The position numbers were made by a program, and so were the translations under genes. From the NCBI RefSeq assembly GCF_003054705.1, contig NZ_QAYX01000023.1, positions 186,001-250,000 on the forward strand: 64,000 bases of DNA. The letters are read 5' to 3'. This document shows positions 11,857 through 49,141 of the stretch, one piece after another. Origin of the DNA: Opitutus sp. ER46 (lineage in GTDB: Bacteria > Verrucomicrobiota > Verrucomicrobiia > Opitutales > Opitutaceae). The first letter of the stretch is position 1. Each line of letters opens with the position of its first letter. The notes under the pieces are model-generated. The model was not told the origin of the DNA. It searched no databases and saw only the letters and a program-made list of their open reading frames with translations.

Positions 11857-11870
11857 GGAAAGGGGTGAAC

Positions 11871-11898
11871 GTAGAAGGCTGAACGCTGAAAGCTGAAG
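11871..11898 (+). repeat. degenerate heptamer repeat (GCTGAAN)
   Basis: Four consecutive 7-nt units: GTAGAAG, GCTGAAC, GCTGAAA, GCTGAAG. The strict period of seven matches other heptamer arrays in this window (23.1, 42.6 and 47.6 kb), although the unit sequence differs. Confidence 0.7.
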
Positions 11899-22285: not shown

Positions 22286-22489
22286 ATGAAAAATCCGTTC
22301 AGCCGAGTCCGTATCTTCGCCCGCGAAACCAAAGACGAGTTGCTCAAATGCTCGTGGCCGACGCGCGCGGAACTCCGCGACTCGACGGTCGTCGTGATCG
22401 TCGCCATTGCGATCCTGGGCGTCTTCACGATGGTCAGCGATTTCTCGCTGCTGCAGGTCGTTGATCTCTTCACCTCGTGGGTCAGCTAA
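22286..22489 (+). CDS. secE: preprotein translocase subunit SecE
   Basis: 67 aa, the short single-span form. The cytoplasmic amphipathic helix with the motif ETKDELLKCSWPTRAELRDST precedes one membrane segment (about 36-58, VVIVAIAILGVFTMV). It stabilises SecY. The gene starts 12 nt after tRNA-Trp and just before nusG, the canonical location; rpmG (L33), often found here, is absent. Confidence 0.95.
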   Translation: MKNPFSRVRIFARETKDELLKCSWPTRAELRDSTVVVIVAIAILGVFTMVSDFSLLQVVDLFTSWVS

Positions 22490-22500
22490 CCTCTTCCTCG

Positions 22501-23079
22501 ATGGCCGCCCAAACATCCGCCCCCGCCGGGGCCCAGTGGTTCGCGCTGCACACGCTCTCCGGCCAGGAGGGCAAGGTGAAGCTCTACATCGAGAAGTTCA
22601 AAAAGGCGGAGGAGCTCGACGATTTCATCTTCGAGGTCCTGCTCCCGACCGAGGTCGTCTCGGAGGTGAAGAGCGGCAAGAAGTCGACGAAGGTCCGCAA
22701 GCTCTATCCCGGCTACGTTTTCATCCAGGCGAGGCTGTACGACGAGAATCACAAGCTCATCAACAAGCCCTGGTACTTCCTGAAGGAGACCACGGGTGTG
22801 ATCGGGTTCGTCGGTGGCGATCGTCCGGCCGCCCTGCGGCAGTCCGAAATCGACGAAATCTACGCCCGCATCGAGGCGGCCAGCGGCAAGGAAGTGCCGA
22901 AGGTGCAGTACTCGGTGGGCGAGGAGGTCAAGATCACCGACGGGGCCTTCGCCTCGCTGACGGGCCGGATCGACGAGATCGATCCGGAACGCGGCAAGCT
23001 GAAAATTTCCGTTTCCATTTTCGGCCGGTTCACGCCGGTTGAACTCGAGTACTGGCAAGTCCAGCGCGCCGCCGAGTAA
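22501..23079 (+). CDS. nusG: transcription termination/antitermination factor NusG
   Basis: 192 aa. NGN domain (about 10-120) with QWFALHTLSGQEGKVK and KLYPGYVFIQARL, then a KOW domain with VGEEVKITDGAFASLTGRIDEID (about 138-160). ATG 22501 is chosen over an in-frame start at 22477 inside secE. It binds the elongating polymerase and ribosomal protein S10, both encoded in this window. Confidence 0.97.
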   Translation: MAAQTSAPAGAQWFALHTLSGQEGKVKLYIEKFKKAEELDDFIFEVLLPTEVVSEVKSGKKSTKVRKLYPGYVFIQARLYDENHKLINKPWYFLKETTGVIGFVGGDRPAALRQSEIDEIYARIEAASGKEVPKVQYSVGEEVKITDGAFASLTGRIDEIDPERGKLKISVSIFGRFTPVELEYWQVQRAAE

Positions 23080-23089
23080 TTACACGATA

Positions 23090-23182
23090 TATGATTTACG
23101 ATTTATGATTTCCCGCCGCCTCTCGGAAATTCGAAATCGGAATCACTCGCGCGAAATCCAAATCATAAATCGTTCAATCATA
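23090..23182 (+). repeat. heptamer-built palindrome between nusG and rplK
   Basis: The left arm consists of ATGATTT, ACGATTT, ATGATTT (23091-23111); the right arm of AAATCAT, AAATCGT and TCAATCA-like units (23160-23182). The arms are near-perfect inverted repeats of about 22 nt around a mixed centre. The AT content contrasts with the GC-rich surroundings. It may form a large hairpin in the mRNA ahead of rplK. Confidence 0.85.
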
Positions 23183-23201
23183 ATCCTGATCCGTTTCTAA
23201 C

Positions 23202-42589: not shown

Positions 42590-42592
42590 ACG

Positions 42593-42684
42593 ATTTCGGA
42601 TTGGCGATTGCGGAGCGCGAAAAGAAACGCTGCCCGCTGCCGAGCCGATCCGAAGTCCGCAATCCGAAATCCGAAATCCGAAAT
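42593..42684 (+). repeat. heptamer-built palindrome between rpmC and rpsQ
   Basis: The right arm is three exact AATCCGA units (42661-42681) plus AAT; with TCCGC before it, it pairs with the left arm ATTTCGGATTGGCGATTGCGGA cut into its two halves at 42593-42614. The element fills the whole 99-nt spacer up to 5 nt before the rpsQ ATG. Confidence 0.88.
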
Positions 42685-46222: not shown

Positions 46223-46885
46223 ATGAGCACCGATCCCATTTCCGCTCCGGAAAACACCACGCCCACCGCTCCTGAAGCCGCCGCTCCCGCGCCGGCCCCG
46301 GAAGCGCGTGAACCGCGTGCGCCGCGTGGCCAGGGTGGTTTCCGCGGCCAGGGTGGCCGCGGCCCCGGTGGCAATCGCGGGCCCCGCCGCGACAATCGCG
46401 ACCGCCAGCCTCAGGAAGGCGACGGCCCGCAGATGATTGAGAAGGTCGTCTTCATCAACCGCTGCGCCAAGGTGGTGAAGGGTGGCCGTCGTTTCAGCTT
46501 CGCCGCTCTCGCTGTCGTCGGCGACGGCAAGGGCAAGGTTGGCATCGGCTACGGCAAGGCCAACGAAGTTCCTGACGCGATCAAGAAGGGCACCGCCAAC
46601 GCCCACAAGCACCTCGTCACCGTGAAGCTCAAGGGCGACACGATCCCGCACGACGTGCTCGGTGAGTACGATGGCGGCCGCGTCATGCTGAAGCCGGCGT
46701 CGCCCGGCACCGGCCTCATCGCGGGTGGCGGCGTTCGCGCCGTCCTCGAGGCTGCCGGAGTGAAGAACATCCTCACGAAGTCGATGGGTTCCTCGAACCA
46801 CATCGCCGTCGTGCACGCCACCCTCGAAGGCCTCCGCAAACTGCGGCTCGCCGACGATATCAGCAACGTTCGCAAGAACGCCTGA
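46223..46885 (+). CDS. rpsE: 30S ribosomal protein S5 with RG-rich N-terminal extension
   Basis: 220 aa. The S5 core starts near residue 71 ([50 protein letters not shown]) and runs to the C-terminus. Residues 1-70 are an added disordered segment: Pro/Ala-rich (8-34) then Gly/Arg-rich (35-60). The extension start at ATG 46223 is nine bases after rplR; Met71 would be the start of a conventional S5. No SD sequence. Confidence 0.95.
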
Positions 46886-46887
46886 GC

Positions 46888-46983
46888 CGGCCCTCGAACT
46901 TCGAATCACGATTACCCATCGCCGAGCCGCGCCTCATGGGCGCTTGAGCCCGGCGGTCGGGATCGGGGTTCGAAGTTCGGCCG
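46888..46983 (+). repeat. ~96-nt near-perfect palindrome between rpsE and rplO
   Basis: CGGCC, GAACTTCGAA, GAT and CGCCG blocks of the left arm recur as CGGCG, GATC, TTCGAAGTTC and GGCCG in the right arm. Parts follow a 7-nt period (TTCGAAG, TTCGGCC). The 185-nt spacer is where rpmD (L30) usually lies; no L30 frame is present. Confidence 0.85.
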
Positions 46984-47070
46984 TTCCCAGCAGGTCCAGA
47001 TTCTCCCCATTTTTAATCCGAGTTTCGGCGAGGCCTAGCCTCGCCGGGGCGCCAAAGAGGAAACGAAGCA

Positions 47071-47517
47071 ATGAAGCTCCACGAACTGAAGAACGTCCCC
47101 GGTGCAGTGCACCGCAAGAAGCGCGTTGGCTGCGGCGAAGGCGGCGGCCACGGCAAGACCTCCGGCAAGGGTGGCAAGGGTCAGACCGCCCGTTCCGGCG
47201 GCAGCATCCGCCCTGGCTTTGAAGGCGGCCAGATGCCCCTGTACCGCAAGCTCCCGCACCGCGGCTTCAACAATTTCAATCACCGCGTCTCGTACGCCGT
47301 GGTGAATGTCAGTGATCTGGCCTCTCTCGACGCCAGCGTCACCGAGGTCAACGCTGCCGTGCTCGCCGCCCAGGGCCTGATCCGGGCCGATGAGACCAGC
47401 GTCAAGATCCTTGGCGACGGCGAAATCAGCCGTGTGCTCAAGGTTACGGCCGCCAAGTTTTCCGGCGCCGCCAAGGCCAAGATCGAGAAGGCTGGCGGTC
47501 AGGCTATCGTCGCCTAA
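47071..47517 (+). CDS. rplO: 50S ribosomal protein L15
   Basis: 148 aa. MKLHELKNVPGAVHRKKRVGCGEGGGHGKTSGKGGKGQTARSGGSIRPGFEGGQMPLYRKLPHRGFNN is the conserved Gly-rich N-terminus. Preceded by GAGG. Directly follows rpsE with rpmD missing. Confidence 0.97.
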   Translation: MKLHELKNVPGAVHRKKRVGCGEGGGHGKTSGKGGKGQTARSGGSIRPGFEGGQMPLYRKLPHRGFNNFNHRVSYAVVNVSDLASLDASVTEVNAAVLAAQGLIRADETSVKILGDGEISRVLKVTAAKFSGAAKAKIEKAGGQAIVA

Positions 47518-47528
47518 GAGGCGACGCT

Positions 47529-47623
47529 GTTTCGGTTTTCGTTAGGGACTTGGTTCCGGCGTGATCCCCGCGCCGGACCGGTCCCGGGGCTCGACAATCG
47601 AAAATCGGAAACCCAGAATCGAA
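47529..47623 (+). repeat. heptamer-containing palindrome between rplO and secY
   Basis: Units AATCGAA, AATCGGA, AACCCAG and AATCGAA (47596-47623) keep a strict 7-nt period. CGAAAATCGGAAAC (47599-47612) pairs with GTTTCGGTTTTCG (47529-47541), and an inner stem TCCGGCG/CGCCGGA (47555-47577) closes the centre. Confidence 0.83.
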
Positions 47624-47635
47624 ATTTCTATCCCC

Positions 47636-49141
47636 GTGTTTTCCGCCTTCACGAATTCCCTGAAGATTCCGGAGCTTCGTTCCCGGATATTCTATACGCT
47701 CTCCTTGCTGTTCGTTGCCCGCGTGGCGGCTTATATCCCGCTTCCCGGCATCGACCCGCATCCGCTCCAGCGGTTCTTCGCCGACCAGGCGGCCGGTGGG
47801 GCAGGGGCGCTGATGGGCCTCTACAACATGTTCACCGGTGGCGCCCTGATGAAGGGTGCCATCGCGGCCCTCGGCATCATGCCGTACATCAGCGCTCAGA
47901 TTATCTTCCAGCTGATGACCGCTGTCGTGCCGTCATTGAGCCGGTTGCAGCAGGAAGGCGACGTGGGGCGGCAGAAGCTGACCCAGTACACCCGTTACGC
48001 GACGGTGCTGATCTGCGTGATCCAAGGCGCCCTTCTTCTGCTCGCGCTGGAGAACCCGCAGCAGTTGTTCCCCGGCTATGATGTCGCGACGTACGGCCCG
48101 ATTGTGATCGTTCCGAAGGTCGGCTTCCTCATCACTTCGATCATCTTCATGACCGCCGGCACCATGCTGCTCATGTGGCTCGGCGAACAGATCACCCAGC
48201 GCGGCATCGGCAACGGTGTGTCGCTCCTGATCACGGTCGGCATTCTCGCCGATATCCCCGGTGCCGCCATGCAGACCTATCGGATGTTCTTCCGTCCGGT
48301 GGGCACGGGCAGCGATCTTGGGCTACCTCAGGCGGTTGTCATGATCGCGCTGTTCCTGATCGTCACGGTTGGAATCATCATGGTGGTGCAGGGCCAGAGA
48401 AAGATTCCGGTCCAGTACGCCAAGCGCGTGGTCGGCAACAAGGTCATGGGCGGACAGAGCTCCTTCCTGCCGCTCAAGGTCAACTACTCGGGCGTCATGC
48501 CCGTGATCTTCGCGAGCGCCATCCTCCTTTTTCCGCAGCAGATTCTCTCGTGGGTGGGCGCCTCCTGGCACCTCAAGTTTCTGACCGACTTCTCCAACGA
48601 ACTGCTGCGCGGTAGCGTCTGGTACTACGTTTTCAATGCCGTCCTGATCCTGTTCTTCAGCTATTTCTGGGTTTCGGTGATGTTTAAGCCGATTCAGATC
48701 GCCGACGACCTCAAGAAGTACGGCGGCTACATCCCAGGCGTGCGTCCCGGTGAGCCGACGGCGCAGTTCCTCGATTTCGTGATGACCCGCCTCACGCTCG
48801 CTGGTGCGATCTTCCTCACGATCATCGCCGTCACGCCCGATGTGCTCCTGTTCCAGATGAAGGTTCCAGCGCGTATCGCCTACTTCTTCGGCGGCACCGG
48901 CATGCTCATCACGGTCGGTGTCATTCTCGACACCATGCGCCAGGTGGAAACGTTCCTTCTCCAGCGTCACTATGACGGCTTCCTCCGGAAGGGCCGGATC
49001 CGTTCCCGCAGTGCGAACCCGCAGCAGGCCATGCTCGGCGACGCTCTCAGCCAGGAAGCGGTGATGAAGATCGCGTTGCCCATGTTGGGCCTGCTGCTGC
49101 TCGGCACTGGCATCGCGGCCTATCGTCACTTCCTGAATTAG
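47636..49141 (+). CDS. secY: preprotein translocase subunit SecY
   Basis: 501 aa, ten membrane segments. FTNSLKIPELRSRIFYTLSLLFVARVAAYIPLPGID starts the protein; GIGNGVSLLI, SSFLPLKVNYSGVMPVIFASAIL and PGVRPGEPTAQFLD are SecY motifs. GTG 47636 is chosen because the in-frame extension to 47561 is repeat-derived. No SD sequence. Confidence 0.97.
   Translation: MFSAFTNSLKIPELRSRIFYTLSLLFVARVAAYIPLPGIDPHPLQRFFADQAAGGAGALMGLYNMFTGGALMKGAIAALGIMPYISAQIIFQLMTAVVPSLSRLQQEGDVGRQKLTQYTRYATVLICVIQGALLLLALENPQQLFPGYDVATYGPIVIVPKVGFLITSIIFMTAGTMLLMWLGEQITQRGIGNGVSLLITVGILADIPGAAMQTYRMFFRPVGTGSDLGLPQAVVMIALFLIVTVGIIMVVQGQRKIPVQYAKRVVGNKVMGGQSSFLPLKVNYSGVMPVIFASAILLFPQQILSWVGASWHLKFLTDFSNELLRGSVWYYVFNAVLILFFSYFWVSVMFKPIQIADDLKKYGGYIPGVRPGEPTAQFLDFVMTRLTLAGAIFLTIIAVTPDVLLFQMKVPARIAYFFGGTGMLITVGVILDTMRQVETFLLQRHYDGFLRKGRIRSRSANPQQAMLGDALSQEAVMKIALPMLGLLLLGTGIAAYRHFLN

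Follow-up and report, generated by a model that had tools for sequence, protein, structure and literature searches.

A heptamer-arm element before secY in Opitutus sp. ER46 and its probable place in a dispersed repeat family

Introduction

REP/REPIN and BIME elements are repeats of 20-40 bp that lie between genes singly or as inverted pairs of about 100 nt and carry a tagged palindrome, and cyanobacterial heptameric STRR sequences have a 7-nt period. We know of no transposase for the Rickettsia palindromic elements (RPE). In the accessible parts of their descriptions, RPE are palindromes of ~100-150 bp found between genes and in frame within conserved genes (PMC10969869, PMC2229807). The TAACTGA heptamer repeats of marine Beggiatoaceae are mostly intergenic, lie near start codons and in ribosomal-protein operons, and fall in some ORFs; the accessible text of that report already weighs translation and reading frame of the heptamer and a mobile origin, and states that in most genomes no category of long repeats is commoner than heptanucleotides (PMC4679880 citing Mrazek 2007). 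The available portions of two further papers report Opitutus terrae as highly enriched in GTAG repeats (PMC3733652) and contain nothing bearing on a heptamer family (PMC4210602).

Here we analyze an element directly before secY in a 64,000-nt stretch of the Opitutus sp. ER46 genome (the window), whose unit is AATC followed by two open letters and mostly A (AATCNNA). TAACTGA is the nearest published case that we found. Like it, the AATC family is built of 7-nt units, occurs in ribosomal-protein operons and has some copies in ORFs. TAACTGA, as far as the accessible text describes it, is one fixed unit in direct repeats, with no particular secondary structure predicted and with its ORF copies mostly at the ends (PMC4679880), whereas AATCNNA has two free letters, arms that are often inverted with one polarity, genome-specific usage, and copies between or within domains of conserved proteins. 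In relatives the family resembles RPE in having in-frame copies in conserved protein genes (UvrA, DnaE, SNF2, RND pump and others); RPE are sequence families with their own ORF, whereas the AATC arm is a heptamer array, often single in genes. As with REP/REPIN, AATC arms may stand alone or be joined in inverted pairs some 100 nt long; unlike REP/REPIN, the arm is a heptamer array, shows no RAYT association, and has copies inside genes. The 7-nt period is shared with STRR and long simple sequence repeats, but units in G141, a complete single-contig relative, are not near-identical tandem copies and have a preferred number and order. Among the first-listed titles and abstract openings of a search of mainly open-access literature, we found no description of a degenerate, polar, inverted-arm heptamer family that has genome-specific units and lies at operon junctions and in linkers.

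Results

A 118-nt spacer separates the stop codon of the upstream gene (47515-47517), which we take from its sequence to be rplO, from the GTG of secY (47636-47638). The initial annotation placed heptamer units at 47596-47623, ending 12 nt from the GTG, and the letters confirm this (Table 1); 15/16 AATC letters are kept across the four units. The array also pairs back as claimed, TTTCGGTTTTCG (47530-47541) with CGAAAATCGGAA (47599-47610), at 83% complementarity. The predicted fold is a single long stem enclosing a GC hairpin (-48.8 kcal/mol, z -1.84); because 10/200 shuffles fold as well, the element taken singly is weakly unusual, and its 7-periodicity of 13/18 is under the stricter 14/18 cut used for the junction counts below. 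The gap holds no stem followed by a T-run, that is, no intrinsic terminator or attenuator by this rule. No Rfam covariance model matched 46850-47700, even with the threshold relaxed to E=1, and a gathering-threshold scan of the whole window returned two tRNAs and nothing else.

Table 1. Features of the secY region and the other elements considered in the window
Feature	Position	Strand	Basis or remark
rplO, upstream gene	47071..47517	+	ORF list, translation, neighbour order
Left arm of secY element, TTTCGGTTTTCG	47530..47541	+	inverted repeat
Inner GC-rich hairpin between secY-element arms	47545..47585	+	minimum-free-energy fold
Right arm of secY element: AATCGAA AATCGGA AACCCAG AATCGAA	47596..47623	+	unit reading
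secY, GTG start	47636..49141	+	80 homologous loci
Second AATC-family element, rpmC/rpsQ	42592..42684	+	left arm 42592-42617, right arm 42646-42684
Third AATC-family element	23084..23183	+	units AATCATA, AATCGTA; ORFs 22477-23079 and 23202 onward flank it
Inverted repeat rpsE/rplO	46895..46979	+	arms 46895-46912, 46962-46979; family membership unsure
One-armed heptamer array, other dialect (TGAANGC-like)	11866..11897	+	outside AATC family

By eye, GTAG is absent from 47529-47635, and a CGTC/GACG pair spans the rplO stop (47508-47526). No obvious Shine-Dalgarno sequence was seen upstream of secY in the window and its relatives; an ending such as CCCGTGTTTT or GCTGTGTTTT precedes secY in many species, whatever element is present.

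The initial annotation joined this element with four others of the window in a five-member family. That grouping stands for the elements at 23.1, 42.6 and 47.5 kb, which share the AATCNNA unit, and falls for the other two: the 46.9 kb element, though an inverted repeat, is hardly 7-periodic, and the 11.9 kb array has no inverted partner (best 9/18). The ORFs flanking the 23.1 kb element are presumably nusG-like (22477-23079) and rplK-like (23202 onward), judging from their sequences. A family defined by exact sequence was rejected: AATCGAAAATCG occurs once in the 5.71-Mb genome, so the window copies are not sequence-identical.

We compared periodic arrays in an 864-kb sample of the window's own genome (gaps of at least 25 nt) with one shuffle per gap. 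The expected excess over shuffled intergenic sequence is present: 29 lag-7 arrays against 0 in the shuffles and ∼0.5 expected from coding density. Control lags 5, 9, 10, 11 and 13 gave 1, 3, 3, 1 and 0 arrays; lags 6 and 8 were likewise above chance (37 and 9), as were multiples such as lags 12, 14 and 18. The arrays of other lengths include 6-nt (GAGNAA, AACGAG, GTGARA), 8-nt (AGGGANTG) and 10-nt (GGACACGAAT) units, and several of them form inverted pairs, for example at C22:357054-357351 and at offsets 104810 and 239819 of the C23:186001 piece. A terminator-only reading of all periodic arrays was set aside, since the arrays of the sample lie in 20 co-directional, 13 divergent and 12 convergent gaps. 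Gene calls came from a home-made caller, which mis-called the 42.6-kb region; we therefore trust the label "inside gene" only where Pfam supports it.

A genome scan for the AATC family, also proposed at the outset, recovered the window members and little besides. With at most one mismatch it gave 6 matches, all in the three ribosomal-protein junctions of the window (23.1, 42.6 and 47.6 kb). Two mismatches added 11, with 3 in those junctions and 8 elsewhere, and the reversed-pattern control gave 3 matches in all. If placement were random, the chance that the other two elements share the window would be ∼1e-4 (64 kb/5714 kb squared, the secY element being in it by construction), and this confinement reflects either functional retention or slower decay in a conserved operon. 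We found no near-identical copies of the window elements in the genome, and the three elements are themselves diverged. Diverged copies, restricted here to ribosomal-protein junctions, fit retention for function too, and this counts against a dispersed repeat.

To place the element among its relatives, which are mostly metagenome assemblies, we examined 80 secY loci and 30 loci from 51/57 matching relatives. Of these, 87 rows including the window gave an rplO-secY gap; removal of 6 duplicate rows of the same species left 81 distinct species and their secY tree. The closest relatives of the window are Opitutaceae, as judged from the best secY matches in named genomes, which are first a Verrucomicrobia MAG, then mostly Opitutaceae/Opitutae MAGs. 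Gaps that scored 13/18 at lag 7 and lacked a stem with T-run were assigned to a heptamer class; by eye, L142 was moved into it and L095 to "other". The rplO-secY gaps of the 81 species then comprise 23 with heptamer arms, 17 with a stem and T-run, 10 shorter than 35 nt and 31 others. All 23 hold a 7-periodic inverted-arm element, and their unit types differ. The heptamer label requires 16 changes on the secY tree, at least 13 of them forced by well-supported branches, compared with 20.1 on average for shuffled labels (5/500 shuffles as low). Thus heptamer elements come and go at this junction. The 17 species of the second class (e.g., L053, L058, L092, L115) have a GC stem followed by a T-run in the spc operon directly before secY, as though transcription were attenuated there.

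Lag-7 arrays at the 14/18 cut, which leaves out the window's own gap (13), occur in 17/87 rplO-secY rows (15/81 without duplicates) and in 17/829 gaps of the other twelve operon junctions. Control lags at rplO-secY gave 0 for 5, 8, 9, 10 and 11 and 2 for lag 6; the other junctions gave 3 for lag 8 and 1 for lag 11. At a second junction, the rpmC-rpsQ spacer is 12-32 nt in 48/65 rows, whereas the window, L050, L051 and L055 have there an element of 82-99 nt whose arms are inverted or periodic, and the 80-nt spacer of L065 is also at the lag-7 cut. L051 reaches that cut in 8/13 gaps, with several unit types. A separate string, GGATATGACCCGC, is common to L051 and L072 in the rpsN-rpsH spacer before rpsH.

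Pairs of close relatives give some indication of how fast the secY element changes. L112 and L114 have secY identical at 1446/1488 positions; their heptamer element is identical at 76/100 and their other spacers at 359/380 (a 1-nt gap left out; Fisher p 3.6e-7 for element against spacers). However, the rplO-secY spacer is also faster than most in pairs without heptamers (84/99 in L073/L074, 76/90 in L098/L120), which argues against a pure effect of the element. A second heptamer pair, L057/L059, shows no extra-fast change (element 86/105, rpsE-rplO spacer 75/94).

The secY heptamer gaps span 85-122 nt (L095 left out) and fold well as a class. Over gaps of at least 50 nt, with identical gaps counted once and classes as they stood before the tree-stage reassignment, the mean fold z is -2.92 for heptamer gaps (n=23), -2.7 for terminator gaps (n=18) and -1.08 for others (n=30). 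When the left arms of 22 elements were paired with their own and foreign right arms, the own arm ranked 5.6 on average, where ranks run from 0-21 and 10.5 is the expectation; 4/22 ranked 11 or worse, L122 last of all. These ranks show that the arms belong together, which is compatible with hairpin selection and with common origin alike.

We aligned the units of the right arms to define the family. Once 3 poor arms are set aside, the other 20/23 secY right arms are almost invariant in letters one to four and open in the next two; the fixation of AATC is partly by construction, the arms having been chosen by AATC match. A strict, independent pattern, AATCNNAAATCNNAAATC, is present in 101/288 genomes of the phylum, 52/80 of the family and 17/27 of the genus, and reaches 240 occurrences in G153 (overlapping matches counted). 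The reversed pattern is missing from most genomes with AATCNNAAATCNNAAATC; in some exceptions, G254 and G336 among them, reversed matches outnumber forward ones. Outside the secY set, inverted pairs span 51-189 nt and have GATT on the left and AATC on the right, with the AATC strand outward in 9/9; no inverted pairs were found in the own-genome sample or at the G153 and G060 loci.

Unit usage varies with the genome. Over 181 arrays of 10 genomes (listed genomes with one or two arrays left out), usage gave a chi-square of 370 against a largest permuted value of 247 (0/2000). Within genomes, adjacent units agree in 50/181 cases compared with a permutation mean of 47.4 (637/2000 as many). A 7-genome version gave the same picture: 0/2000 permutations as heterogeneous, neighbours agreeing in 44/140 against 38.6, and 253/280 units stop-free. 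Slippage would make neighbours alike, so agreement at chance level speaks against it.

The clearest view of the arm comes from G141, where 25 arrays from 20 regions, part of those listed, have the majority consensus AATCCAA AATCGAG AATCMAA AATCGAA AATCCC. The arm is ∼34 bp, with five units in 17/25 arrays, four in 5 and three in 3, and occurs singly and as inverted pairs. Unit order is non-random (0/5000 permutations as concentrated). This preferred number and order of units suggests that a 34-bp arm is copied as a whole, and speaks against slippage. Across species, the unit order of the secY arms is weakly conserved (24/3000 permutations as large). G153 and G060 present a different case: their long, uniform AATCGTA arrays, whose unit contains a stop, look slippage-grown, which argues against the generality of arm copying.

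Among 49 arrays drawn from G141 and from family loci (L194 and L216 overlap, so that two arrays of G141 enter twice), the end of an opposite-strand gene lies just 3' in 17/49 and that of a same-strand gene just 5' in 4/49. A corresponding start-codon distance test was discarded, spurious ORFs having spoiled it: 1279/4000 random positions score.

The initial annotation suggested looking for a RAYT-like driver, and no association emerged. We chose 46 genomes by their array content; Y1_Tnp is present in 39 of them, 18/22 array-rich and 21/24 array-poor or array-free. The array-rich G153, G060, G121 and G288 have none, and 8/9 array-free members of the genus of G153, G060 and G121 do. The window's own genome has 13 Y1_Tnp matches, and we found no arrays (period 6, 7, 8 or 10; 15/18 cut) in the flanks of 8 of these 13 genes. 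Our searches found no copying enzyme for the arms, no target-site duplication and no clean empty site, there being no filled/empty pair close enough among the relatives.

Whereas the window's own copies are intergenic, many arrays of relatives fall inside called ORFs. Of 16 listed ORFs, 10 were given to Pfam and 10/10 match: PSCyt2, sulfatase, UvrA, DUF1365, two SASA esterases, flavodoxin/FAD reductase, RND pump, SNF2 helicase and DnaE. The Pfam match covers the array of the RND pump, that of DUF1365 and one of the two arrays of the SNF2 helicase; in the remaining proteins, arrays lie beside or between matched stretches. The AATC strand is the coding strand in 10/10 proteins; UvrA has both arms. 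Any long heptamer repeat is one heptapeptide in all three frames, and 10/16 pairs of free letters leave the AATC strand stop-free. These account for 325/362 listed units; AATCGTA, the dialect of G153 and G060, falls outside this group.

UvrA offers a comparison at one site. All 27/27 genomes of the window's genus match, and 23 give both flanks of one loop; 10 have a short form of it and 13 a longer one. On visual inspection, the loop of G019 holds an AATC hairpin, those of G008 and G006 a heptamer hairpin of another kind, and those of G002, G021 and G018 GC palindromes; the loop of the window's own genome is longer and without a visible array. Again by eye, L282, L284 and L291 have in-frame GC-rich palindromes (such as GGGCGG...CCGCCC) in the UvrA loop, with no heptamer arms there.

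The DnaE sample (30 loci from 45 matching genomes and 7 more) yielded the linker in 36/37 loci. Lag-7 arrays of at least three dialects occur in 8/36 linkers; control lags 5, 8, 10, 11 and 13 gave 0, lag 6 gave 4 and lag 9 gave 3, and the adjacent core (21,600 nt) gave 0 for lag 7, 1 for lag 6 and 10 for lag 9. Linkers measure 144-207 nt with an array and 129-330 nt without, so that length is about equal and sequence seems replaced rather than simply inserted. Three linkers of 306-330 nt, about twice the usual length, have no detectable lag-7 array (L477 from the window's own genome, L475 and L479). Because a single 7-nt step shifts the dnaE frame, arrays would be hard to grow in place there; they probably arrive preformed, though 21-nt steps or compensated changes may also have built them.

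Discussion

We think it rather probable that the secY element is an inverted arm pair of a dispersed short repeat, of REPIN or RPE kind, that has been copied into tolerant spacers and linkers. The junction changes (at least 13), the spread of the unit pattern through 101/288 genomes and the five-unit consensus shared within G141 support the initial description of a repeat that is dispersed, non-autonomous and compatible with polycistronic mRNA. On this reading, copying or template switching would carry whole arms into spacers that tolerate them. Between co-transcribed genes they would be kept because no gene is added by them; within proteins, because every frame gives one and the same heptapeptide and the usual dialects are stop-free. 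Between rplO and secY, the RNA of the element could fold into a hairpin.

A hairpin of that kind might itself be what is selected: the rplO-secY spacer would need a cis-acting RNA structure to lower or buffer secY with respect to the ribosomal proteins, heptamer arms being one way to build it. In favour of this are a terminator-like hairpin with a T-run at the same place in 17/81 species, heptamer gaps that fold better than shuffles (mean z -2.92), own arms that pair better than swapped ones (rank 5.6, scale 0-21), and own-genome matches (at most one mismatch) only at ribosomal-protein junctions. We nevertheless consider it unlikely as the explanation, since 31/81 species have neither hairpin type and 10 have gaps under 35 nt, the same arms are also present in protein linkers, and relatives carry them at many unrelated sites, and the window's gap is without a stem and T-run in a region with no Rfam match. 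Less likely again, in our judgment, is growth in place, by which replication slippage preferring 7 nt, together with fold-back template switching, would renew arrays locally with no movement. The match of arms within a locus, the fast turnover in L112/L114, the excess of 6-, 7- and 8-nt periods in the own genome, the long uniform arrays of G153 and G060 and the prevalence of heptanucleotides among long repeats in the accessible text of the TAACTGA report (PMC4679880 citing Mrazek 2007) are consistent with such growth. It accounts poorly for units in G141 that are position-specific and usually five, for neighbours no more alike than chance within a genome, for a single polarity in 9/9 pairs, and for the recurrence of AATC with two free letters through the phylum; arrays are also present in dnaE, where a 7-nt step would break the frame unless steps were of 21 nt or compensated.

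A REP/REPIN family driven by RAYT has the right size and the right layout of singlets and inverted pairs, and the genome does carry 13 Y1_Tnp matches. The GTAG enrichment of Opitutus terrae, in the available part of its report, also points that way (PMC3733652). Even so, we regard this origin as highly improbable: Y1_Tnp is found in 18/22 array-rich and 21/24 array-poor genomes and is absent from G153, G060, G121 and G288, and no arrays (15/18 cut) flank 8/13 of the genome's own Y1_Tnp genes.

Returning to a dispersed repeat, a stronger version can be offered as a tentative proposal, about which we have more doubt than confidence: the family may be a new class of mobile repeat of Verrucomicrobiota, a 34-bp arm of five 7-nt units that gives the same hydrophilic heptapeptide in every frame, overwrites operon junctions and, in frame, linkers of essential proteins (DnaE, UvrA), and has no transposase of its own. 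If this is true, a frame-neutral repeat family is a solution to living in a gene-dense genome, and it repeatedly rewrites, across the phylum, linkers in housekeeping proteins, the replicative polymerase included. It would also supply a testable reason for the recurrence of 7-nt units, a period not divisible by three giving one peptide in all frames. The rplO-secY junction, with heptamer arms, a terminator-like hairpin or neither, is a natural series for asking what determines the output of SecY in proportion to that of the ribosomal proteins.

Two further observations concern where the units occur. Among the IMG/VR contig matches listed, a set taken without a control, the AATC pattern is present in many contigs, some with 5-8 matches (e.g., L345, L384). 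In G153 (L178, L182, L188) and G060 (L165, L191), AATCGTA/AATCGAA arrays adjoin GC hairpins in composite repeated elements.
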